A stretch of 56,049 nt of DNA, from positions 1 through 56,049 of the forward strand of contig JAFEDF010000175.1 of the NCBI GenBank assembly GCA_018241785.1, in the 5' to 3' direction. The notes below the pieces were generated by a model. The model saw only the letters and a program-made list of their open reading frames with translations. It did not search any database and was not told the DNA's origin. The DNA is from Pseudomonadota bacterium. Its GTDB lineage: Bacteria; Pseudomonadota; Gammaproteobacteria; Burkholderiales; Casimicrobiaceae. Positions 12,246 through 24,973 of this stretch are shown here, in pieces. Numbering within the stretch: the first letter of the stretch is position 1; each line of letters opens with the position of its first letter. The position numbers were made by a program, and so were the translations under genes.

Positions 12246-13034
12246 TCAGAATCGGAATTCGATGCCGGCGTAGAAGCCGCCGGTCGCGACGTCGTAGAGA
12301 AAGTTGTCGCGGTCGTAATCGACTTTCAGGTAGCGATACCCGAACTTCGCCGACATCGTCGGCGAGATTGCGTAGTTCGCGCCGGCGAACCCCTGCCAGG
12401 TGTAGTCAGAGCCGCCGCCTCCGACGTCGACGTATCCGACGGCGTTCCACTGCGGTGCGATCGGATACTGCGCGCGCACCCCGATGAACCCGTCGACCCA
12501 GCTTCGGCTGCGCACGAGCGTGCGGCCTTGCGGCGCAAACACGCTCGACGACAGGTCGAGGTCGAGCTTCACGTCGTTGGTGCGAATGCCGCCCACGATG
12601 TCGACCGGGACCGCGCCGTCGGCCACGCGCCACGTCCCGGCGATCGTGTACGCCTGCTGTGTGGGCGTCGCATGGATGTCACCGAATCCGGGGAGCGGCG
12701 CCTCTTTCGTCTGGCTGAGCTTGAGGTACATCGCGTCGAGAACGAACCCGAATCGATCCTTGCGTCCTTCGAGCGCGCCCATGAAGCCGAAGCGCAGCGA
12801 GTGGAAGATGTCGCTGAAGTTCGCGCTGACTCCGTTTGCCGTCAGCCGGCCGATGCCGACGTCGCCGTTCATGCCTGCGGCCCACAGATACGGCGTGGCT
12901 TCGAACTGCCAGCGGTCAGGCTGCGGTGCGGCCGCCTGCTGCGCGCAGGCAAGCTGGGCCGCGAGCGCCGCAATGCCAAGCGTCATGCCCGTTGCTGCAC
13001 GACGCAGCACCGTCCCCCCGCGAACGCCGTTCAT
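12246..13034 (-). CDS. Outer-membrane beta-barrel protein
   Basis: The 262-aa protein has a signal peptide ending near ACAQQ and alternating aromatic/hydrophobic strands (WQFEATPYLWAAGMNGDVG, FGYRYLKVDYDRDNF). It ends in YAGIEFRF, a terminal Phe typical of barrels assembled by BAM. It resembles generic OmpA/OmpW-size outer-membrane proteins; no specific function is assigned. Its ATG overlaps the stop of the DUF3300 gene by four bases (ATGA), so the two are probably co-translated. Confidence 0.82.
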   Translation of the reverse strand: MNGVRGGTVLRRAATGMTLGIAALAAQLACAQQAAAPQPDRWQFEATPYLWAAGMNGDVGIGRLTANGVSANFSDIFHSLRFGFMGALEGRKDRFGFVLDAMYLKLSQTKEAPLPGFGDIHATPTQQAYTIAGTWRVADGAVPVDIVGGIRTNDVKLDLDLSSSVFAPQGRTLVRSRSWVDGFIGVRAQYPIAPQWNAVGYVDVGGGGSDYTWQGFAGANYAISPTMSAKFGYRYLKVDYDRDNFLYDVATGGFYAGIEFRF

Positions 13035-14239
13035 GACCGGCCTCCGCGGGGACCGCCGCCACCAGGTCCGCCGCCACCGGGTCCGCCGCCACCAGGTCCG
13101 CCACCGCCGGGTCCGCCACCGCCGGGTCCGCCACCGCCGGGTCCGCCACCGCCGGGTCCGCCACCGCCGGGTCCGTCGTCGTCGACACCGCGTCGATCGC
13201 GCCCGGGGCCGCGCTGGCTGACTGCCTGCTGCGCGCGCTTCTGGTTGACTTCACCCGTCGCCGCGTCGACCGCCTGATTGCGGTTGCGCGTCTGGGTTGC
13301 CGAATCGACCGCCTGGTTGCGGTTGCGCTTCTGCGCGGCGGAATCGGCCGCCTGGTTGCGGCTGTATTTCTGCGCGATCGTCGGATCGCGATACGCAACG
13401 CCCTTGCGGTGGGCCGCGCTGTGCTGCCAGTGCGTGCTGTTGATCGTGGTGTGGTTGAACTGGTTGTAATGATTGATGTTGATGTTGACGTCGTGGCTGT
13501 GCCAGTTGACGCCACCCCAGAGTGCAGCTCCGACGATCACACCGGTCGCGAACCCGAGCCCCGGAGCAGCGACGTATCCGGGGGGATACCAGTAGTAGGG
13601 AACGTATGCGGGGTACCACCACGCGCCGTAGACGACAGTCGGGTTGTAGACCGGCACGTAGACGACGGTTGACACCGGCTGGATGACGATCGTCTCCTTC
13701 TCGACCACGACCTTCTGCTGCCCGGTCGTCTTGAGCGTGCCCTGCGCATAGGCCTTGTGGCGCAATGCCTGCACGGTGTTCATGACTTCGGTACGCTGCG
13801 CGAGAAAGGCGTCGCCGAGCTGCTGCGTCCACTCCAGCTTGTCGTTCATCATCGTGATGACCGTCGGGAAGGCCGTCAGCGACTTCACCGAGGGATCCCA
13901 CGTTTGCTTCTGCATCGCGCTTTCCAGCGCGTTGCCGGTTGTGTTCGGATTCGCCTTCACCCACCGCGCGGCGCTCACCACTTCGAGCGGGTAGGTCGAC
14001 GCCATCAGGATCTGCGCGAGCAGCGCGTCCGGATAGAGCGCAATCGGCGCGAGCATCTGGTCGAGCTCGGGCTGCGAGAACGCCCTCTGTGTGCTTCCTG
14101 CCGTTGCGTTCGACTGCGCTTCGGCCGCAGCGACGACCATCGTCGCCTGTCCGAATGCGGTGTCGGAAAGCGTGAATGCGAGGATCACTGCAGCGGCAAC
14201 CGCGCGCCGGGCAAGCGGATGCGTTGGTCTCGGGTTCAT
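13031..14239 (-). CDS. DUF3300 exported protein with PGGGG repeat tail
   Basis: The 402-aa protein has an N-terminal signal (cleavage near AFGQA). The DUF3300 core contains LDQMLAPIALYPDALLAQIL, ASTYPLEVVSAARW and a Tyr/Pro/Trp-rich stretch (YPAYVPYYWYPPGY). Residues about 280-325 carry three copies of a roughly 14-residue unit containing RNQAxDSA. The C-terminus is about eight PGGGG repeats encoded by a 15-bp tandem repeat. The function of DUF3300 is unknown; an envelope location is inferred. It overlaps the next gene by four bases and begins 19 bases after the preceding gene. Confidence 0.85.
   Translation of the reverse strand: MNPRPTHPLARRAVAAAVILAFTLSDTAFGQATMVVAAAEAQSNATAGSTQRAFSQPELDQMLAPIALYPDALLAQILMASTYPLEVVSAARWVKANPNTTGNALESAMQKQTWDPSVKSLTAFPTVITMMNDKLEWTQQLGDAFLAQRTEVMNTVQALRHKAYAQGTLKTTGQQKVVVEKETIVIQPVSTVVYVPVYNPTVVYGAWWYPAYVPYYWYPPGYVAAPGLGFATGVIVGAALWGGVNWHSHDVNININHYNQFNHTTINSTHWQHSAAHRKGVAYRDPTIAQKYSRNQAADSAAQKRNRNQAVDSATQTRNRNQAVDAATGEVNQKRAQQAVSQRGPGRDRRGVDDDGPGGGGPGGGGPGGGGPGGGGPGGGGPGGGGPGGGGPGGGGPRGGRS
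13051..13172 (-). repeat. 15-bp coding minisatellite (PGGGG repeats)
   Basis: About eight near-identical 15-bp units (core GGGTCCGCCACCGCC on the plus strand) encode PGGGG at the C-terminus of the DUF3300 protein. The 3-divisible period keeps the frame, so copy number could vary without breaking the gene. Confidence 0.9.
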
Positions 14240-14258: not shown

Positions 14259-15530
14259 TCATTTCACATTGCGTACGCGCCAGCCGGCACGCGCGAACTC
14301 CGTTGCCGCGAGCGGGCTCACCTGTCCCTGGACGAGCAACGTCCGTTTTGCCGCCGCAAGTTCGGGCGCGTTCGCGAACGCTGCGGCCTCTTCGTTCCAG
14401 TACAGATAGTCGACGGCCGCGGCGGCGACGACCTCGCCGCTCTTCGACTGGCCGATCGGCACGATCCCGCGCACGCGGACCTGCGTGACCGGTGTTGCGC
14501 GATTGAATTGATCGAGCAACGCCACCGCTCGCACGAGGAAGCGTGCCGGGACTTCACCTGAAATCGTCGACGCGGCGCGAACCACCGAATCGCGTCCGGA
14601 GGCGGCGTTCAGCTCGCCAAGCGTCGAAACGAGCGCGGTCTGCAGCGTCGGTGTAAACCAGCGGTTCCTGAGAAAGGCGCGCACGACCGCGGCAGGCACG
14701 CCCATGCGCGTCAGCGCTTCGTCGTTGGACTTGGCGAGATCGCCGGGCGGATGGTTCCAGACCGAGTCCTTGACGGTGCCCTCGAAGCTCGTCGCATAGT
14801 TGAGCGGCGCGGCAACCGCCCCGACGGCGAGGCCGACGGTGAAGTTGCCGGCAAAGGTGGCGCTCGCCGCACGATCGAGCAGCGGGCGCAGGACCGGATT
14901 GGACGTGTACGGATCGACGCCGAGCTGCTTTGCCCACTCGCGACGAGCCCGGTTGTATCCGAGTGGATCGCCGATGAACGAAGGCGGCTCGTCGGCATCG
15001 CCGGAAGGCTTCTGCGTGTTTTGATCCGGCGACGATCCCGCCAGCGTGTCGCCGGCATTCTGGAGACCGGATTTCACCGAATAGCCGATCCGGCCGAGCA
15101 CCGTTCCCGCTCCCGACGCAATGTTCTCGACGGTCGCGCCGGGATCGGTGACGAGCGAGCCGGCGAGCTTGACCGGAGCGGCGGCGGATTTCGCGACCGC
15201 GTCACCGAACGCACTGCTGCTCTCGACTTTCCTCAGCTCGTCGATCGCATGCAGCTCGCGCTCACGAATCGCAAGCATGTCGACACCGACGACGCGGAAC
15301 CTGCCGGACTTCGTGCTGAGCTCGAAGCTCCCGAGGAAGCGATCGACCGGAACCGGGGTGCCGACCTCGAACCCAGCGCCCCGCAGCAGCGCCGGCGGCG
15401 CCAGCTGCGCTGCGGGAATCGCCGGCGCGGCCTCGAAGCCGCGACTCTGTGCGAACGCCTGCGCGACCGCGCAGGCCAGCACGAGCCCGCAAGCACCCGC
15501 ACCCAATCTCGAACTACTCACGCTTTTCAT
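14259..15530 (-). CDS. Exported protein of unknown function
   Basis: The 423-aa protein has a clear signal peptide (MKSVSSSRLGAGACGLVLAC then AQAFAQ). I do not recognise a family. The mature part has a beta-like segment (SFELSTKSGRFRVVGVDML), an Ala/Gly-rich region (SLVTDPGATVENIASGAGTV), an acidic/Pro linker (DQNTQKPSGDADEPP) and an alpha-helical C-terminal half. ATG 15530 is preferred over ATG 15563, which would overlap the upstream gene and bury the signal peptide. It lies 20 bases after the receiver gene and 19 before the DUF3300 gene, consistent with one transcript. Confidence 0.75.
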   Translation of the reverse strand: MKSVSSSRLGAGACGLVLACAVAQAFAQSRGFEAAPAIPAAQLAPPALLRGAGFEVGTPVPVDRFLGSFELSTKSGRFRVVGVDMLAIRERELHAIDELRKVESSSAFGDAVAKSAAAPVKLAGSLVTDPGATVENIASGAGTVLGRIGYSVKSGLQNAGDTLAGSSPDQNTQKPSGDADEPPSFIGDPLGYNRARREWAKQLGVDPYTSNPVLRPLLDRAASATFAGNFTVGLAVGAVAAPLNYATSFEGTVKDSVWNHPPGDLAKSNDEALTRMGVPAAVVRAFLRNRWFTPTLQTALVSTLGELNAASGRDSVVRAASTISGEVPARFLVRAVALLDQFNRATPVTQVRVRGIVPIGQSKSGEVVAAAAVDYLYWNEEAAAFANAPELAAAKRTLLVQGQVSPLAATEFARAGWRVRNVK

Positions 15531-15550: not shown

Positions 15551-15934
15551 TCAATCGTGACATTCGGTGACCCAGGCAACCGCATCGAGCAGCGCCTGGC
15601 CGTCGACCGGCTTCTTCAGGAGAAAACGTGCGCCGACGTTGCGCGCGTCGTGTCGGGCAAGCCCTCCCTCGGCCGCACACAGCACGATCACCGGCCAGTC
15701 GACTCCTCGCTGCCGCATCGTGTCCTTCAGCTTCGAACCGGCAGGCAGCTGTGACGCATCGAGGATCACGCAGGCGTTGGCCTTCGGCCACTCCGGTGCG
15801 ATGAAATGCTCGATCGTCTCGAACGGTCTAGCCTCGAACCCGGCGGCGATGGCGAGACGGCACAATGCGTCGCGCACGGATGCATCGCGGTCCACGATGT
15901 AGATCCTGGTTTCGCTGCCACGCTCGACTGGCAT
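15551..15934 (-). CDS. Stand-alone response-regulator receiver domain
   Basis: The 127-aa protein is only a CheY-like receiver: IYIVDRDASVRDAL at the N-terminus (acidic pocket), phosphoacceptor Asp in CVILDASQ (about residue 58), and the conserved Lys in FLLKKPVDGQ (about 107). The segment after the Asp is SQLPAGSKL rather than the usual MxMPxMxG, so it may be atypical. There is no output domain. It may be a phosphate sink or a protein-binding switch for the kinase at 20001-22343 (inference). GGGAG lies about 8 bases before ATG 15934. It is the first gene after the 49-bp promoter-like repeat copy A. Confidence 0.82.
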   Translation of the reverse strand: MPVERGSETRIYIVDRDASVRDALCRLAIAAGFEARPFETIEHFIAPEWPKANACVILDASQLPAGSKLKDTMRQRGVDWPVIVLCAAEGGLARHDARNVGARFLLKKPVDGQALLDAVAWVTECHD

Positions 15935-15959
15935 TGGTCGCCGCTCCCACTGTCGACGG

Positions 15960-16008
15960 CACGATAGCGATGCGCGCGAAATGCAGCTATCCGACCTTGG
16001 TAGGATCG
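15960..16008 (-). promoter_or_regulatory. 49-bp repeat copy A: dyad operator plus promoter
   Basis: This 49-bp element matches 19843-19891 at all but four positions. Read on the minus strand it holds the dyad ATCCTACCAAGGTCGGAT (arms 7/8 complementary, spacer AA), and 22 bp later a -10-like TATCGT (complement of 15961-15966). The predicted start near 15954 leaves a ~20-base leader with GGGAG before the receiver gene. The dyad centre would fall near -43, typical of an activator overlapping the -35 region, and no good -35 hexamer is present. The dyad half of the element lies in the last codons of the mscS gene. Confidence 0.6.
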
Positions 16009-17648
16009 GGCGCGCTTGCATCGGCGTTCGCGTCGCCGGTGTTCGGTGGCGCCGCCGGGGCCGGATACCACGAGTCACGCGGCACGACCTGCGGCGCAGG
16101 CGGATCCGCCTCGTAGTTCGGCGACATGATCTGCACTCCGTACTCGTTGAAGACATCCTGGATGCTGGCGTGCAGGCGATCGAGCACGTCCGGCCGCGGC
16201 GACTCGGTGCCGTCGCGCACGCAGGCAACCAGGCAGTACTCGACGTAGAAGTCGGACAACGCGGTCTGGCGCACGAAAGGTGGAGGACTGGGCGCGATGT
16301 CGGGCACGCGATGCGCAGCCGTCTCGAGCATTGCGACGACCTGCCGCCATGGCGTGGCGTAGCCGATCGTCACCCTGGTGCTGACGGTGTAGCGCGAGCC
16401 GCTCGCGGTGGTCGAAAAGTTGCGCGCACCGCTCTGCAGGATCAGTGCGTTCGACAGCAGCGCTTCCTCCCCGAGCCCCGTCCGTATCCGCGTCGTGAAC
16501 GCGCCGATCCGCGAGACGATGCCGGCGACGTCGCCGACCCTGACGCTCTGGCCCACACGGAGCGTGCGCGAATACATGAGAATCAGGCCGGCAACGCCCT
16601 GGCCTGCGAGACCGGAGGCGCCGATCGACACCATGAGTCCCACGAGCACCGAGAGGCCCTTGAACGCCTCGGTGTCGGCGCCGGGCAATTGTGGAAAGGA
16701 GAGCCCGACCGCGAACAGGTAGACGACGGCGTTGAACAGCGACCGCGTCGCGCCCACCGTGTCGGCGTCGAGGCCCCCCACCGAGTGCCGGCCGCTTTGC
16801 ACCTGCTCGAAGAACAGTCCGGCGAGCCGCACGACCCCCCGCGCGACCACGAAGATGATGAACACGACGACGAGGCCCGGAATTGCGTCCGCAACTCCGC
16901 TTGCGATATTGCCGAGCTTGGCGAGCAGCGTCTCCACCATGCGCTCGCCCCACGGCCGCGTCCGCGCGAAGCGCGTCAGCGAATACGCGAGCCAGATGAA
17001 GGTTGCAGCCAGGACGACGATCCACGAGGCGATGCGGACCGCACGCCCGGTGAGTGCGGCGACCGCCCGGGCGTCGAGCAGCCTCGCGCCGCGAATGCTG
17101 AGGCGTTGCGTTTTCTCGGCGGCGAGCGGGGCGAGGCGGACGGTCGTCCACCGGTCGAAGCGAATGACGCCGAGCAGCGAGATGGCGTAGAGCGCCGTTG
17201 CCAGCAACGTCCAGACCGTGGCGAGCGCCACGTAGCGCGCCGAGTGCTCCTCGGCATAGTCGGAGATCGCCTGCTCGAGCCGAGCGGCGCTTTCCCGCGC
17301 GACGTTCTCAGTGGTTTCGCCGACTTCGGGGTCGACGTCGATCCGGGTGACGACGAACGCGCGCTTGCCGCCGATGAGCACTTCGGTGCCGTCGGGGATC
17401 GCCTGCGTCGACACGGCGGGTGTTGACCCGCTCGCGAGGGCGCTCTCGATGCGCGCCGTCGTCGCGTCGGCGCGCTCGCGTGCGCTGTGGCCCGCGATCG
17501 GACCCTGCAGCGTGATGATGGCGCGGTTCGAGATCCGGACTTCGGCGCGGTCGTGGACCGGCTTCGCGCGATCCTGCGCGTGCGCCGCCGGCGCGAAGCC
17601 GATGCCGACGGCCAGCAGTGCGGCGAGGAAACGATCGTGCACGATCAC
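15987..17648 (-). CDS. Small-conductance mechanosensitive channel (MscS family)
   Basis: The 553-aa protein has an N-terminal signal-like segment (FLAALLAVGIGFAPAAHA), a soluble region, several membrane helices from about residue 120, and a pore helix/MscS core (VGLMVSIGASGLAGQGVAGLILMYSRTLRVGQSVRVGDVAGIV). A cytoplasmic beta and alpha/beta domain follows, with a Pro/Ala/Asp-rich tail. It would open under membrane tension to release solutes during hypo-osmotic shock. GTG 17648 overlaps the upstream stop (GTGA). The 3' codons coincide with the dyad of repeat copy A. Confidence 0.85.
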   Translation of the reverse strand: MIVHDRFLAALLAVGIGFAPAAHAQDRAKPVHDRAEVRISNRAIITLQGPIAGHSARERADATTARIESALASGSTPAVSTQAIPDGTEVLIGGKRAFVVTRIDVDPEVGETTENVARESAARLEQAISDYAEEHSARYVALATVWTLLATALYAISLLGVIRFDRWTTVRLAPLAAEKTQRLSIRGARLLDARAVAALTGRAVRIASWIVVLAATFIWLAYSLTRFARTRPWGERMVETLLAKLGNIASGVADAIPGLVVVFIIFVVARGVVRLAGLFFEQVQSGRHSVGGLDADTVGATRSLFNAVVYLFAVGLSFPQLPGADTEAFKGLSVLVGLMVSIGASGLAGQGVAGLILMYSRTLRVGQSVRVGDVAGIVSRIGAFTTRIRTGLGEEALLSNALILQSGARNFSTTASGSRYTVSTRVTIGYATPWRQVVAMLETAAHRVPDIAPSPPPFVRQTALSDFYVEYCLVACVRDGTESPRPDVLDRLHASIQDVFNEYGVQIMSPNYEADPPAPQVVPRDSWYPAPAAPPNTGDANADASAPDPTKVG

Positions 17649-18523
17649 CCGCGCTCCGGCGCAGGGCGGGACGCGCGCAGTCGAAGCTTTCCATAGACGG
17701 ATGTCACGACGACCCCGACCAGCAGGAAGAGCAGAATCGCGGCCGGCGCGAGCGAATCGTCGGGAAACGTCGCACGAGCGATCACCAGCGCAACGCCGGG
17801 ATGGCGCATCGGCGACGCGATCGCCAGCACCGTGCGCCCTGCCGGGTCGGGTCCGCCGAGCAGGTGTCCTGCGGCCACCGCGACGACTGACACGACGGCG
17901 AACGCAACGACGGCACCGCTGCCGAGAAGCGACACGATCGCAGGCCACGCGTTGATGAGGATCAGCACGCCGGCGACGACGAGAAGCGCCGTCCCGCTCC
18001 GGGTCACCCATGGCGCCATCCGCTCGGCCGCTCCGGGGAAACGCCACCGAACGGTCAGCCCGACCGCGAGTGGCGCGAGAACCGACATCGCGACCGTCCT
18101 CGCGATGGCATCGGTTCCGACCTGCAGGTCGCGTCGGAACAGCCAACCCAGCACGTCGACAGCAAGTGGGGCGACCACGATCGCAACCAGTGCAATCGCG
18201 ACGAGGAGGCCGTAGGCATGACTCGCCCGGCCTCCAAACTTCATCTGCTTGCCGGGAAGAAGCGGCGGCAGCGGCGAGATCGCCATGGCGAGCAGCGCGA
18301 CCTTGACCGGGGGCGGAACATCGAAGACCAGCACCACGACAACCGCGGCGAGCGGTACGACTCCGTAGATCGCCGCGATCGAACGAAGCAGCCGATGGGG
18401 CCGCCTGAAGAGGCCGCGGAACAGCGAAAGCGCGTCGGCGAACGTGGCCCGCAGTCCGAGCCCGATGACGATCAGCAGCAGGCTCGCGGTGACCGCCCAT
18501 TTGACGAGTTGCGCGGCATCCAT
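17645..18523 (-). CDS. Na+-dependent transporter, BASS (bile acid:sodium symporter) family
   Basis: The 292-aa protein has about nine hydrophobic helices. GLGLRATFADALSLFRRP-like N-terminal features, ISPLPPLLPGKQMKFGG and ASPMRHPGVALVIA are characteristic of the BASS-type transporters of bacteria. The substrate is probably an organic anion, but is unknown. ATG 18523 is chosen because it is followed by the first membrane helix; an in-frame start at 18598 would add 25 polar residues overlapping the upstream gene. It is coupled by a four-base overlap to the mscS gene. Confidence 0.78.
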   Translation of the reverse strand: MDAAQLVKWAVTASLLLIVIGLGLRATFADALSLFRGLFRRPHRLLRSIAAIYGVVPLAAVVVVLVFDVPPPVKVALLAMAISPLPPLLPGKQMKFGGRASHAYGLLVAIALVAIVVAPLAVDVLGWLFRRDLQVGTDAIARTVAMSVLAPLAVGLTVRWRFPGAAERMAPWVTRSGTALLVVAGVLILINAWPAIVSLLGSGAVVAFAVVSVVAVAAGHLLGGPDPAGRTVLAIASPMRHPGVALVIARATFPDDSLAPAAILLFLLVGVVVTSVYGKLRLRASRPAPERG

Positions 18524-18560
18524 GTTGCGCTCCCGGTTCGAGAAGGGTGGTGCGTCGACG

Positions 18561-19313
18561 TTACGCGAAGAGAAGGATTGCCGCGAACACCACGGCACCG
18601 AGGCAGAAGGGCCAGAATCGCCCCTCGCGCTCGTCGGGAAGCTCGGCCCGCAAGCTCGTGATCACCACGCCGCCGGCAAGCAGCGCGAACAGCCGCGCGA
18701 AGGCCGCCTCGGGCAGGGTCGTCATGATCCCGAGCAGGGCGCCTGCCAGGACGCTTGCGGCAAGCACCGGCCTCCCGGCTCGTGCGTAGCGCCCACGATG
18801 CTGCTCGAACATCGAGTGATCGACGATCAGGAAATGCACCGCCATGGCGATCGTGTAGACCGCGAGGGCGACCGGACCACGCTCGAGCCGCTCGCTCAGC
18901 AGGTAGCCGATCAGCGCGCTGTATGCCGCGAAGCCGCCCAGGTGGAGCCCATAGGTCGCGACGTTCGCAACGGCTTCGGCGCTGCGTCCGCGCTGCCTGC
19001 GTGAGGCGAGCACCAGGTGCTCGATTCCGTAGAGCACGACAAACGACAGCAACGCGAGCAAGTACACGCGTTGCTCGGCGAAGAGCAGCGGCTCGCCGCC
19101 GGCCGCCGCGACAATCGCCTGGTTCTGGGCGCCAAGCTCGGGGAGAACGTCGACGAAGACATACGCAACCGACACGCCTGCTGCCGTCGAGATCCGGCGC
19201 CGGCGCGACCAGAGGCCGTGCTCGGCGCCCTCCGCCGGCATCAGCCATCGTCCGCCCGCGTAGGCGGACGCCAGCGCGAACGCCGCAACGACCGGTGCAA
19301 TGGTGTGGTCCAT
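18561..19313 (-). CDS. Integral membrane protein, ZIP-like
   Basis: The 250-aa protein has about eight predicted helices. AGVSVAYVFVDVLPELG resembles the metal-binding HxxPE-type helix of ZIP transporters, and VHFLIVDHSMFEQH adds His/Asp residues in a later helix. No His-rich loop is seen. It could move divalent metal, but this is inference from a short motif. ATG 19313 begins the first hydrophobic helix. The gap to the DUF202 gene is 26 bases and to the BASS gene 37 bases, so it is probably co-transcribed. Confidence 0.65.
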   Translation of the reverse strand: MDHTIAPVVAAFALASAYAGGRWLMPAEGAEHGLWSRRRRISTAAGVSVAYVFVDVLPELGAQNQAIVAAAGGEPLLFAEQRVYLLALLSFVVLYGIEHLVLASRRQRGRSAEAVANVATYGLHLGGFAAYSALIGYLLSERLERGPVALAVYTIAMAVHFLIVDHSMFEQHRGRYARAGRPVLAASVLAGALLGIMTTLPEAAFARLFALLAGGVVITSLRAELPDEREGRFWPFCLGAVVFAAILLFA

Positions 19314-19339
19314 GTCGATCCGCGTGCGGCGGCCTGCGC

Positions 19340-19780
19340 TCACACCGCGCGCACCAGCACCGCGACGAACGCGAAGGCGCCGATCAGCGCGAGCGCCACC
19401 GCGATCGCCTGCAGCGGGGTGCGGCTTGCGACACTGCGGATGCCCGCCACGGGCCCGAACTCGTCCGACATGTAGTCGAGCAGCCGCCGGTACTGCCAGA
19501 GAGAGATGACCAGTCCGGCGATGCCCGCGCAGATCAAGGCGAGCCCGAGATAGCGGGGCATCTGCGGGCGCAGCGCGGGCGCGACGCCATCCATGTCCTG
19601 CAGGCGGGCGAAGAACTGCACGATGGTGAAGCCGAATCCGATCAGCGCCGTCGCCGTGCGGACCCATGACATCAGCGTGCGCTCGATCGAAAGCCGCGTC
19701 CGCAGCCACGCGAAGTGGCTTTCCGCAGTCGGCTTGACCACGAATCGGGGAGAACCGGTGTCGCTGGCGTCGTCGGGCAT
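19340..19780 (-). CDS. YidH/DUF202 family membrane protein
   Basis: The 146-aa protein has a polar N-terminus and then the DUF202 hallmark FAWLRTRLSIERTLMSWVRTATALIGFGFTI, with three membrane helices in all. YidH-type proteins are small inner-membrane proteins of unknown role. ATG 19780 fits the family N-terminus; an in-frame start at 19858 would add 26 residues and overlap the promoter-like repeat. It is the first gene after repeat copy B. Confidence 0.85.
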   Translation of the reverse strand: MPDDASDTGSPRFVVKPTAESHFAWLRTRLSIERTLMSWVRTATALIGFGFTIVQFFARLQDMDGVAPALRPQMPRYLGLALICAGIAGLVISLWQYRRLLDYMSDEFGPVAGIRSVASRTPLQAIAVALALIGAFAFVAVLVRAV

Positions 19781-19842
19781 CGGTGGCTGACGGAACTCGT
19801 CGCGAAGGGAGAGCGACGTGAAACCTGCGCTCGATGGCAGCG

Positions 19843-19891
19843 CACGATAGCGATGCACGCGGGATGCGGCTATCCGACCTTGGTAGGATCG
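19843..19891 (-). promoter_or_regulatory. 49-bp repeat copy B: dyad operator plus promoter
   Basis: This is the second copy of the 49-bp element, with the same 18-bp dyad ATCCTACCAAGGTCGGAT and the same TATCGT -10-like box (complement of 19844-19849). The predicted start near 19837 is about 57 bases before the DUF202 ATG. It lies between that gene and the end of the hybrid kinase/LuxR regulator (20001). The rest of the 220-base gap holds no gene. Confidence 0.6.
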
Positions 19892-20000
19892 CGGGCCATC
19901 ACGGCGAGTACGGCGCGCGCTATCGGCCCAATGTGGCCAGCGGGACCGGTGGCAGGCGGCGGTCGGCCGCAGCCCCGGCGGTGACGCTGTGCGGCCCCCG

Positions 20001-22343
20001 CTACCGGCCGGGGCGTTTCGAACGTTCGCCGATCCCTGCCGCTTCGCAGGAGCGAACGAGCTCAGCCACCGAGCGAACCTGCATCTTGTCCATCACCTGT
20101 CCGCGGTGCTGCTTCACCGTGGCCTCGCTGATCTCGAGATCGGAGGCGATCTGCTTGTTCAGGCGGCCTGCGATGACGCAGTGCAGAACATCGCGCTCAC
20201 GAGGGGTGAGTGTGGCGAGCCGCCGCTCGACCGCCTGCCGCTCGCGCGCTGCGCGGGTGAGTTCCTCGCTGCGCGCGACCGCCCGGCGCACCGCGTCGAT
20301 GAGCACGGAATCGTCGACGGGCTTCGCGAGGTACTCGAACGCTCCGTCTTTCATCGCCGTGACGCCCGTGGCAGCGTCGTCGCGCGCCGTGAGGTAGACC
20401 ACCGGAGCGCAGAGGCCCCTGCGCGCAAGCTCCCGCTGCAGCTCGGCACCCGTCATGCCGGGCATCTGCATGTCGAGCACGAAGCATTGCGCGGATTCGA
20501 GCAGCGGGCTCGCCAGGGCATCGGCCGCCGAGCCGAACGGCACCGCACGCCATCCGCCGGCTGCCAGCAGGCGCACGACCCCATCGCGAACGGCGTCGTC
20601 GTCATCGACGACGCAAACCGTTACGATGCTCTCGCCGACCGGTGTTGGGGCATTGGCGATCGGAGGCAATCCGGCGCCTGCGACAGGCGCGACGCTTTCC
20701 AGCCGAAGCGCGAATCGAAGCGTCGTGCCTCCGCCGGGGTTCGCCTCGGCGACGATCGTGCCGCGATGCGCCTCGACGATCGAGCGCGAAATCGCGAGAC
20801 CCATGCCGAGCCCTTCGCCTCGCGTCGTGAAGAACGGGTCGAAGACTCGCTCGAGGCGATCGTCCGCAATGCCGGTGCCCGTGTCCGACACGCGGACCTC
20901 GACCCACTCGCCGGACACGCAGACGAGCCGCAAGGCGAGCCGTCGTTCGGGTACCGGGCGATCCTGCAGCGCATGCAGCGCGTTCGACAGCAGATTGAGC
21001 ATGACCTGCTGAATCTGCGTGCGCACGCCGCAGACGACGAATCCCTTGCGAAGCTCGTTGTCGAGCCGGACGTGCCTTGCGTCGAACTCGCTCCTGAACA
21101 GGATCACGACGTCGTCACACGCCTCGCCGAGGTCGAAGCTCGACGTCGGCGGCTCCTCGCGGCGAAGCAGCTTGCGCAGGTTGTCGACGACCGCCGCCGC
21201 GCGCTTGTCATCACGCACGATCGCTTCGAGAATTTCGCGCATCGGTCCTGCGCCGTCCTCGCCGAGACCCCGCAGTCCAGCCTGCGCATTGGCGAGGATG
21301 CCCGTCAGCGGCTGGTTCAACTCGTGCGAAAGCGACGCGGTCAGCGTCCCCGCATGGGCGGCACGATCCGCGTGGCGCAACTCGGCGCGCAGGTCTCGCG
21401 ACTCCTGCTCGGCCGCACGAAGTTCCGAAACGTCCCACACGGTGGCGAGCGTGCGTCGCGGGGTCCCGTCGATCTCGTATGCAGTCTCGATACGGCTGCG
21501 AACCGTCCGGATCACCCCATCGGGGCGAATGATTCGATACTCGAGCTCGACATTCGGCGTTTGCCGCGCCAGCGCGAGGTCGTTGGCCTCGCGCACGCGT
21601 GCGCGGTCGTCGGGATGAACCAGGTCGAGCACTTCGTTCGCAGTGCCCGTGAGGACGGAGCCGAAGATGCGATTCGCCTCCTCCGAGCCGACGAGCGTGT
21701 CGTCCCACCAATCGCTTACGTAGCTGCCTATGCGGGCGATGCGCTGTGCTTCCGCGAGATTGCGTTCGCTTGCCTGAAGCGCCCGCTCGGTGTTGTGGCG
21801 GGTGAGCACGGCAAGAAAGGTCTGCGCGACCATCTGGAGTCGCGCGAGGATCGTTTCGGGCCATGCGGGCATGGGTTTCGTGCCGGTGAGGCAGAGCGCG
21901 TGCGTCACACTCCCGCCGATGCCGACCGGGATCACGAACAGCGACTGCAGGCCGAGACCGGCCGCCGAAGCTCGATCGATCGTCGCGTCGACGGGGAAGT
22001 CGTCGATGCACGTGAGCACGACGCGCTCGCCGCGAAAGATGGTCTTCGCGTGCGTCCACGGAAACAGGGCCCCGTACTCCAGCGTCGTCGGAGCGCGCGG
22101 AACTCCTTCGAGCGCGACGACATGCCGTAGGCGGGCCTGCCGGATGTCCGGCTGGACCTCCATGATTCCGCCTTGGTCGACCGCGAAAAATGCGATGAGA
22201 TCGCGCAAGCAGGCGTCGACGACTCCGGCCAGTGCGCTTCCGCCGGTCTGGGCGAGGCGAGTCGAGATCGAAAGGACCAGGTGCAGGAACGCCTGCACGT
22301 CATCCGCGGACGTCGTGGCGCCGCGCGCGACGGCCATGTCCAT
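20001..22343 (-). CDS. Hybrid sensor histidine kinase / FixJ-type LuxR response regulator
   Basis: The 780-aa protein combines a whole two-component pathway. Residues ~15-190 look like a GAF domain; ~195-310 a PAS domain with PAC (ELEYRIIRPDGVIRTVRSR); then HisKA with phospho-His340 in SLSHELNQPL; an HATPase_c with LLSNALHAL, DTGTGI and GLGMGLAI; a receiver with Asp624 in VLDMQMPG and Lys in YLAKPVD; and a LuxR/FixJ helix-turn-helix at ~710-765 (LTPRERDVLHCVIAGRLNKQIASDLEIS). It is soluble: no membrane helix is evident, so the signal is probably internal (redox, gas or a small ligand, inferred). ATG 22343 has a G-rich stretch upstream; ATG 22337 is also possible. It is the best candidate to bind the dyads in the 49-bp repeats. 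Confidence 0.9.
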   Translation of the reverse strand: MDMAVARGATTSADDVQAFLHLVLSISTRLAQTGGSALAGVVDACLRDLIAFFAVDQGGIMEVQPDIRQARLRHVVALEGVPRAPTTLEYGALFPWTHAKTIFRGERVVLTCIDDFPVDATIDRASAAGLGLQSLFVIPVGIGGSVTHALCLTGTKPMPAWPETILARLQMVAQTFLAVLTRHNTERALQASERNLAEAQRIARIGSYVSDWWDDTLVGSEEANRIFGSVLTGTANEVLDLVHPDDRARVREANDLALARQTPNVELEYRIIRPDGVIRTVRSRIETAYEIDGTPRRTLATVWDVSELRAAEQESRDLRAELRHADRAAHAGTLTASLSHELNQPLTGILANAQAGLRGLGEDGAGPMREILEAIVRDDKRAAAVVDNLRKLLRREEPPTSSFDLGEACDDVVILFRSEFDARHVRLDNELRKGFVVCGVRTQIQQVMLNLLSNALHALQDRPVPERRLALRLVCVSGEWVEVRVSDTGTGIADDRLERVFDPFFTTRGEGLGMGLAISRSIVEAHRGTIVAEANPGGGTTLRFALRLESVAPVAGAGLPPIANAPTPVGESIVTVCVVDDDDAVRDGVVRLLAAGGWRAVPFGSAADALASPLLESAQCFVLDMQMPGMTGAELQRELARRGLCAPVVYLTARDDAATGVTAMKDGAFEYLAKPVDDSVLIDAVRRAVARSEELTRAARERQAVERRLATLTPRERDVLHCVIAGRLNKQIASDLEISEATVKQHRGQVMDKMQVRSVAELVRSCEAAGIGERSKRPGR

Positions 22344-24664: not shown

Positions 24665-24973
24665 GTGAGCGACCCCGTCCCCGCGCTGGTCGTCGATCTC
24701 CTCGAGTGGCTTGGCCCCCAGGGTAAGCCTTATCATGAAGTCATGGACGCATGGCGCACGTCGTGCCCGCGCCTGCCGGTCTGGGAAACCGCCAACGAGC
24801 AGGGTCTGATCGACCATCTGCCCACACCCGGCGCCCGGGCGCGAATCGCCGTATCGGACAAGGGCCGCGAGTTCCTCGCCGCGAGGGGCGGCGCTGATCG
24901 GACAAGGGCCGCGAGTTCCTCGCCGCGAGGGGCGGCGCTGATTTGCGTTCATGAGAGAACGCGTTCGTGGTGA
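24665..24973 (+). CDS. Small conserved-type protein with frameshifted C-terminus
   Basis: The 102-aa product starts at GTG 24665 with GGAG at 24655-24658. The first ~75 residues (VVDLLEWLGPQGKPYHEVMD, AWRTSCPRLPVWE, then a basic end) match a short family I have seen in Burkholderiales, possibly winged-helix-like; its function is unknown. A 44-bp tandem duplication (24853-24940) shifts the frame after GREFLAARGGAD. Without the second copy the protein would continue LRS and stop at 24951-24953, giving about 81 residues. The present tail (about 25 residues) is therefore probably new and non-native. Confidence 0.65.
   Translation: MSDPVPALVVDLLEWLGPQGKPYHEVMDAWRTSCPRLPVWETANEQGLIDHLPTPGARARIAVSDKGREFLAARGGADRTRAASSSPRGAALICVHERTRSW
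24853..24940 (+). repeat. Exact 44-bp tandem duplication
   Basis: Bases 24853-24896 and 24897-24940 are identical and adjacent. The 44-bp period is not divisible by three, so the copy shifts the reading frame of the small gene it sits in. The perfect identity suggests a recent event. Confidence 0.95.

Follow-up and report, generated by a model that had tools for sequence, protein, structure and literature searches.

Which protein, if any, acts on two nearly identical 49-bp elements that stand before separate genes on the minus strand of contig JAFEDF010000175.1 (assembly GCA_018241785.1, Casimicrobiaceae), and what would it do there? The stretch that we analyzed, hereafter the window, comprises positions 1 to 56,049 of this contig. 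Each element contains an 18-bp imperfect palindrome (the dyad) followed by a candidate -10 box. We consider it likely, from the comparisons given below, that both elements are promoters and that the dyad is the operator of the adjacent fused kinase (20001-22343), with one protein switching on the genes behind both. This proposal concerns the following features.

15960..16008, minus strand: copy A of the 49-bp element, upstream of the receiver gene and overlapping the 3' end of mscS
15989..16006, minus strand: dyad of copy A, ATCCTACCAAGGTCGGAT, 18 bp, predicted operator
15961..15966, minus strand: predicted -10 box TATCGT of copy A, 22 nt past the dyad
19843..19891, minus strand: copy B of the 49-bp element, between the stop of the fused kinase and the DUF202 gene
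19872..19889, minus strand: dyad of copy B, ATCCTACCAAGGTCGGAT, 18 bp, predicted operator
19844..19849, minus strand: predicted -10 box TATCGT of copy B, 22 nt past the dyad
20001..22343, minus strand: fused PAS_3-HisKA-HATPase-receiver-GerE(LuxR) protein (Pfam), predicted binder of both dyads, helix SEATVKQHRG

Two copies of a 49-bp element with a dyad and a -10-like box

A sequence-only reading of this DNA had proposed that the 49-bp element is duplicated in unrelated surroundings, that one copy lies within the coding end of mscS and that the dyad would be centered near -43. All three proposals held. Copies A and B (16008-15960 and 19891-19843, read on the minus strand) are identical at 45 of 49 positions, and exactly four differences, all in the 22-nt spacer, separate them, leaving the dyad and TATCGT the same in both. 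The sequence beyond the two copies seems dissimilar; a repeat search extends the match to 15959-16013 and 19842-19896 at 89% identity. In copy A, the dyad closes the mscS reading frame: it supplies the final six codons, for D-P-T-K-V-G, plus the first base of the stop codon. If TATCGT is placed at -12 to -7, the dyad spans -52 to -35, with its center at -43.5. At up to three mismatches the window contains two matches to the dyad, compared with a mean of 0.01 in shuffled sequence.

The start assigned earlier to the fused kinase, 22343, is one of two in-frame ATG codons (22463 and 22343), and a near-identical database protein of 780 amino acids has the length that a start at 22343 gives. At an E value of 0.001, Pfam matches in this protein were limited to PAS_3, HisKA, HATPase_c, Response_reg, GerE and weaker matches to sigma-70 region 4; PAS_3 is the sole domain named ahead of the kinase domains.

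The sequence-only reading had also named a lack of further copies as an outcome that would count against it, and inside this genome that is the outcome. Only two sites were found in 3.49 Mb at up to three mismatches, which rules out a genome-wide regulon in this genome. The conservation of the dyad in relatives, however, speaks for a circuit of local reach and against a repeat that arose by chance. When a broader K/M pattern was used, two extra sites with three mismatches appeared (L113 and L116), neither with a box.

The dyad accompanies the fused kinase within the genus

Among 64 genomes of the family, the dyad was found at up to two mismatches in six, namely the genome of the window, G045, G050, G051, G052 and G024. 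A full-length fused kinase is encoded by five of the 22 genomes of the genus, that of the window included, and the dyad lies beside the kinase in all five; the remaining 17 have no dyad at up to two mismatches. In G045, G050, G051 and G052 the site is on the same strand and directly past a full-length relative of the kinase (43-58% identity), falling inside the 3' end of the kinase gene in G051. These four genomes keep the dyad, the 22-nt interval and the box despite dissimilar spacers, the box being TATCGT in three and TAACCT in G051. This comparison supports the earlier view of the element as a promoter of the activator type. The site in G024 has no box, and no match to six window proteins was found in 6 kb around it; we therefore took it to be a chance match. 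Partial matches to the kinase (38-42%) were the only ones in G046, G048 and G049, and G046 has a different dyad, ATACGACCATGATCGTAT, about 100 nt past the helix-turn-helix (HTH) domain.

A check of near-matches at up to three mismatches covered 24 separate sites in six genomes, with five more places in G451 left out. TAnnnT stands at an offset of 22 in all six linked sites from the genus; the linked site of a verrucomicrobial locus (L035) has TATAAG there, and none of the 17 unlinked near-matches has TAnnnT at 21 to 23. Spread over the order was rejected: ACCNAGGTNGGA followed by the gap and TATCG matched four of 399 sampled genomes, a sample without G045, G050, G051 and G052, and the four were the genome of the window and three single matches in other families.

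The dyad and its spacing recur at distant loci

A profile built from five of the kinases found 520 relatives in the GTDB genome collection, of which the best 80, corresponding to 78 distinct loci, were kept. Sites were required to match ATNNKACCAAGGTMNNAT at 16 or more of 18 positions with at least six of eight arm positions complementary, and palindromes may count on both strands. A dyad of this form was present in 42 of the 78 loci (76 matches), compared with 1, 3, 2, 1 and 1 in five local shuffles. Three of the 42 loci belong to the same genus, and the site of G050 falls narrowly under the cut. The sites were picked without using boxes. Of 62 distinct sites, those of the window among them, 25 have TAnnnT at an offset of 22 and six each have it at 21 and at 23; no other offset from 5 to 44 has it in more than one site.

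The locus L035 comes from another phylum, Verrucomicrobia, and has the same helix, EATVKQHR, and the same dyad. Its order is kinase, FixJ-type regulator, dyad and lone receiver, with one unrelated gene separating the kinase from the regulator.

In a separate observation, ATTGGACCAAGGTCCAAT at up to two mismatches gave 18 listed strand matches in G465 and 12 in G469, the genomes of the Rokubacteriota loci L076 and L061, compared with one to four in most of the 18 genomes searched. These numerous matches are perhaps true regulons.

The recognition helix and the outer dyad bases covary

For the comparison of helix and site, looser criteria were applied (core at least 7/8, arms at least 5/8, site no more than 40 nt ahead of or 700 nt past the end of the HTH). 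A site was found near 35 of 74 HTH matches; windows drawn at random from these loci, real sites included, gave 65 of 790. Helices of the form E[AS]TVKQHR are paired with GGTCGGAT in six of six cases and other helices in none of 29 (Fisher 6e-7, uncorrected for kinship). With V at the variable helix position, 20 of 24 read GGTCC or one-base variants in that half, tallied by the CC pair; of the other four, three of EQN type read GT or GC and one of EQT type reads CT. The single EQN-Q helix reads AT (GGTATA), three EQN-L helices read CT (GGTCTA), and an unrelated helix (L049) reads TG. By these pairings, the regulator helix and the outer bases of the dyad covary; for FixJ-type helices this provides a recognition code that can be put to the test.

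Applied to 62 relatives from the database, a search pattern for the helix of the fused protein returned a match for 44, all TVKQHR, and none for 18; the list contains 18 entries without a GerE domain. In each of the six genomes searched, the words for this helix were present a single time; the words used left out the AGY serine codons. The earlier suggestion that identified the LuxR-type regulator with the fused protein next to the elements is thus supported by the linkage (5/5 versus 0/17), by the single helix per genome and by the covariation. Four things are shown at the level of sequence: the architecture of the fused protein, the linkage of dyad and regulator, the 22-nt spacing and the covariation of helix and dyad.

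Genes behind the dyad

The genes past the two copies in the window are as follows, in the order in which they would be read.

19340..19780, minus strand: DUF202 gene (Pfam), the first gene past copy B
18561..19313, minus strand: unnamed hydrophobic protein without a Pfam or NCBIfam match, a predicted membrane protein
15987..17648, minus strand: mscS-type channel gene (Pfam), start approximate, its last codons being the dyad of copy A
15551..15934, minus strand: receiver-only protein of 127 amino acids, the first gene past copy A (Pfam 26.6 bits, under the curated cut-off of 30.2)
14259..15530, minus strand: unnamed protein of a large family without a Pfam entry, encoded past the receiver gene, with a relative behind the dyad in G052 and in L060
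13031..14239, minus strand: DUF3300 gene (Pfam), possibly in the same operon as the receiver gene

A receiver domain starts within 250 nt past 25 of 66 sites (24 of 44 loci), compared with 15 of 316 control windows; the query receivers were themselves drawn from this same set. The count is 21 of 40 for sites with a box and four of 26 for sites without one. Nineteen dyad-linked receiver genes, including those of the window, G045 and G051, were aligned, two from L018 being excluded by the filter; all encode lone receivers of 123-153 amino acids. The 16 from other loci keep the acidic pair, the acceptor Asp, the Thr/Ser and the Lys. Within the genus the receiver is eroded: the window and G045 have Cys in place of Thr/Ser and have lost the MPG loop, and G051 has Ala for the acceptor Asp. 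The window receiver keeps the acceptor Asp59 and has Cys86 at the Thr/Ser position.

Targets other than receivers vary, a sulfatase gene following the dyad in G050 and a 14259-type gene in G052. Over 79 loci, relatives of the DUF3300 protein were found at nine, of the 14259-15530 protein at three, of the DUF202 protein at two and of mscS at one. The 14259-15530 family was rejected as a fixed target, since its relatives in G052:C72, G053, G004 and G025 (3 kb only) have no HTH match or such dyad nearby; one weak palindrome lies near the relative in G004. Likewise rejected was a DUF202 group that moves with its own dyad. Four more genomes of the genus encode DUF202 relatives; the closest of these, from G046, was the one checked for the dyad, and it has none in 15 kb.

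Proposed mechanism and possible role of the lone receiver

The best reading of the locus is a self-contained switch that would drive its own receiver gene and envelope genes. The fused protein would sense a signal, autophosphorylate and transfer the phosphoryl group to its own receiver. The phosphorylated dimer would then bind the dyad at -52 to -35, centered near -43, and recruit RNA polymerase by class II activation. Transcription from copy B would cover DUF202 and its downstream genes, and transcription from copy A would cover the receiver gene and the genes that follow. The receiver protein, in turn, may restrain the kinase as FixT restrains FixL.

Several results weigh against this proposal. 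By the criteria used, 36 of the 78 loci have no site, and under the looser criteria 39 of the 74 HTH matches have none. TATCGT fits the -10 consensus at just four of six positions. Eleven sites from the whole-genome search that lie outside the first set have TA at offsets 22, 23 and 24 in four each, and in none to two at other offsets from 15 to 29; TAnnnT occurs among them at 22 in two, at 23 in three and at 24 in one. The spacing is thus less sharp there. Five of the six KQHR cases come from one genus, the sixth from another phylum. G046, G048 and G049, with their more distant partial kinase matches, do not have this dyad, and no lone receiver lies past the dyad in G050 or G052.

FixT-like feedback by the lone receiver is likely, by analogy with the Caulobacter system treated in PMC7078487. 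That paper describes FixT as a receiver that inhibits FixL autophosphorylation and leaves phosphotransfer unaffected, and as a modulator reported to need no phosphoryl group. The degenerate receivers of this genus, with Cys replacing Thr/Ser or Ala replacing the acceptor Asp, suit such a modulator; as a sign of kinase inhibition, the eroded active site is suggestive only. A second explanation keeps the operator and the activator but gives the lone receiver another part to play: it would act as a phosphate sink, or as a phosphorylated output in competition with the receiver of the fused protein, and not as a FixT-like inhibitor. The 16 operator-linked receivers that keep their phosphorylation residues elsewhere would suit this explanation, as would Asp59 and the Lys kept in the window; since the receiver is eroded in the window, G045 and G051, we regard it as rather unlikely here.

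Likeness to known systems

By HTH structure, the nearest solved chains are FixJ (the nearest of all), the response regulator of 1yio (StyR), and EL222. The lux box of autoinducer-binding LuxR proteins, which have a GerE-type HTH, is an inverted repeat of about 20 bp near -42. The fused protein has no autoinducer-binding domain by Pfam and is, unlike them, a response regulator. An inverted repeat at a fixed distance before the predicted -10 box, with a probable cognate GerE-type regulator nearby and coinherited, was found here, as for class II promoters of the FixJ/NarL type, in which the repeat is centered at about -42 to -44.

The closest published operators found are those of CrbR and EL222. 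In PMC5715377, the CrbR site (ACTU motif) of the Pseudomonas fluorescens acs promoter is given as TACTACCATCGTCGAAT at -52 to -36, compared with -52 to -35 predicted for the window dyad. Both are imperfect inverted repeats, the CrbR site belonging to a response regulator of the LuxR family and the window dyad being predicted to do so, and 13 of 17 bases agree. The system described there differs in having a separate kinase, CrbS, with an SLC5 transporter domain, and acetate genes as targets; in the window, kinase, receiver and HTH are joined in one protein, the predicted targets are neighbors, and SLC5 is not among the Pfam domains of the fused protein. EL222 is a light-regulated LOV-HTH protein, the consensus of which is given as RGNCYWWRGNCY in PMC10521638. 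This consensus fits the wider core of the KVHR type, GGACCAAGGTCC, at 12 of 12 positions, the site of G045 at 10 of 12 and that of the window at nine of 12, so that the window dyad misses the consensus. Both proteins have a GerE-type HTH, but EL222 is a one-component LOV protein with other outer arms at its site, whereas the window protein has PAS_3, kinase and receiver domains.

The FixL-FixJ-FixT system, as represented in PMC7078487, resembles the prediction for the window in that a kinase with a FixJ-type output induces a lone receiver; here the lone receiver gene (15551-15934) stands behind the predicted operator of copy A. FixL and FixJ are separate proteins, whereas the window kinase and regulator are fused. 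In the same account, FixT binds an Fe-S cluster through a four-Cys motif, and the Caulobacter system is oxygen-linked.

The likenesses to CrbR, EL222 and FixJ suggest an operator of a known kind. They also allow the explanation that another LuxR/FixJ-type regulator, such as a relative of CrbR, binds the dyad and that its place beside the fused kinase is incidental, since the agreement at 13 of 17 bases indicates that regulators of this class share cores. We consider this improbable in view of the linkage (5/5 versus 0/17), the helix words found once per genome in 6/6 and the covariation; moreover, the DNA words tried gave no EKT[VI]KVHR-type match in the genome of the window, other helix types not being surveyed.

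With the adjacent fused protein as the preferred regulator, what appears to be new here is the wiring within one protein, the rewritten arms and the apparently copied promoter. Within an incomplete library, literature searches found no paper on such a cassette, including a FixJ operator with a lone receiver, and none joining FixJ, LuxR-type, hybrid kinase, palindrome and MscS. Two papers were listed for a fused kinase with a LuxR-type domain, and one, on CpxR of E. coli, for DUF3300 with a response regulator. By title, PMC5715377 alone concerned such an operator among the matches listed for the motif strings. The terms used for NarL recognition residues returned nothing, and a DegU structure paper gave general statements only. 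The present comparison would tie an uncharacterized fused kinase-regulator family to likely DNA sites and targets from sequence alone. It would also assign a predicted shared control to lone receivers, to DUF3300 and to further unnamed envelope proteins.

How the two copies may have arisen

In G045 and G051, the kinase, one dyad and the receiver follow in succession, whereas in the window three genes lie between copies B and A. We infer that the element was duplicated as the DUF202-membrane-mscS group entered between kinase and receiver; the copy apparently gave this group its own promoter. The case suggests a route by which regulators could acquire targets, namely the copying of a promoter.

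That the element is instead a repressor site, an anti-terminator-like site or a mobile repeat is the least probable of the explanations, and very much so: overlap with the 3' end of mscS in the window and with that of the kinase gene in G051, and the flanking of a 3.9-kb stretch by direct repeats, would suit it, but there are just two copies in the genome, the box at 22 nt with a receiver gene behind suits an activator at -43, and between genomes the spacers diverge while dyad and box persist.

Taking the element as an activator-dependent promoter, one may picture, with some reserve and at slightly less than even confidence, a portable self-wired cassette of kinase, FixJ-type regulator, one operator and lone receiver that occurs in many phyla. 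Its arms would be rewritten with one helix position (KVHR, KQHR, KLHR), and here it would be fused and recruit genes by copying its 49-bp promoter.

In the verrucomicrobial locus L018, the end of the regulator, the dyad and the start of the receiver are tandemly repeated (2154-2171 and 2730-2747), another local copying of a promoter.

Other features of the window

The receiver-only protein (15551-15934) contains four cysteines, one of them in the usual Thr/Ser position. The 14259-15530 protein has 359 relatives at an E value of 0.001 or lower, and none of the 120 listed has a Pfam entry; its predicted structure (mean predicted local distance difference test score 78.8) had no PDB match at an E value of 0.001 or better. 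At the 3' end of the DUF3300 gene, a 15-bp tandem repeat (window 13025-13204) encodes a glycine- and proline-rich tail. Finally, a perfect 44-bp tandem duplication is present at window positions 24853-24940.

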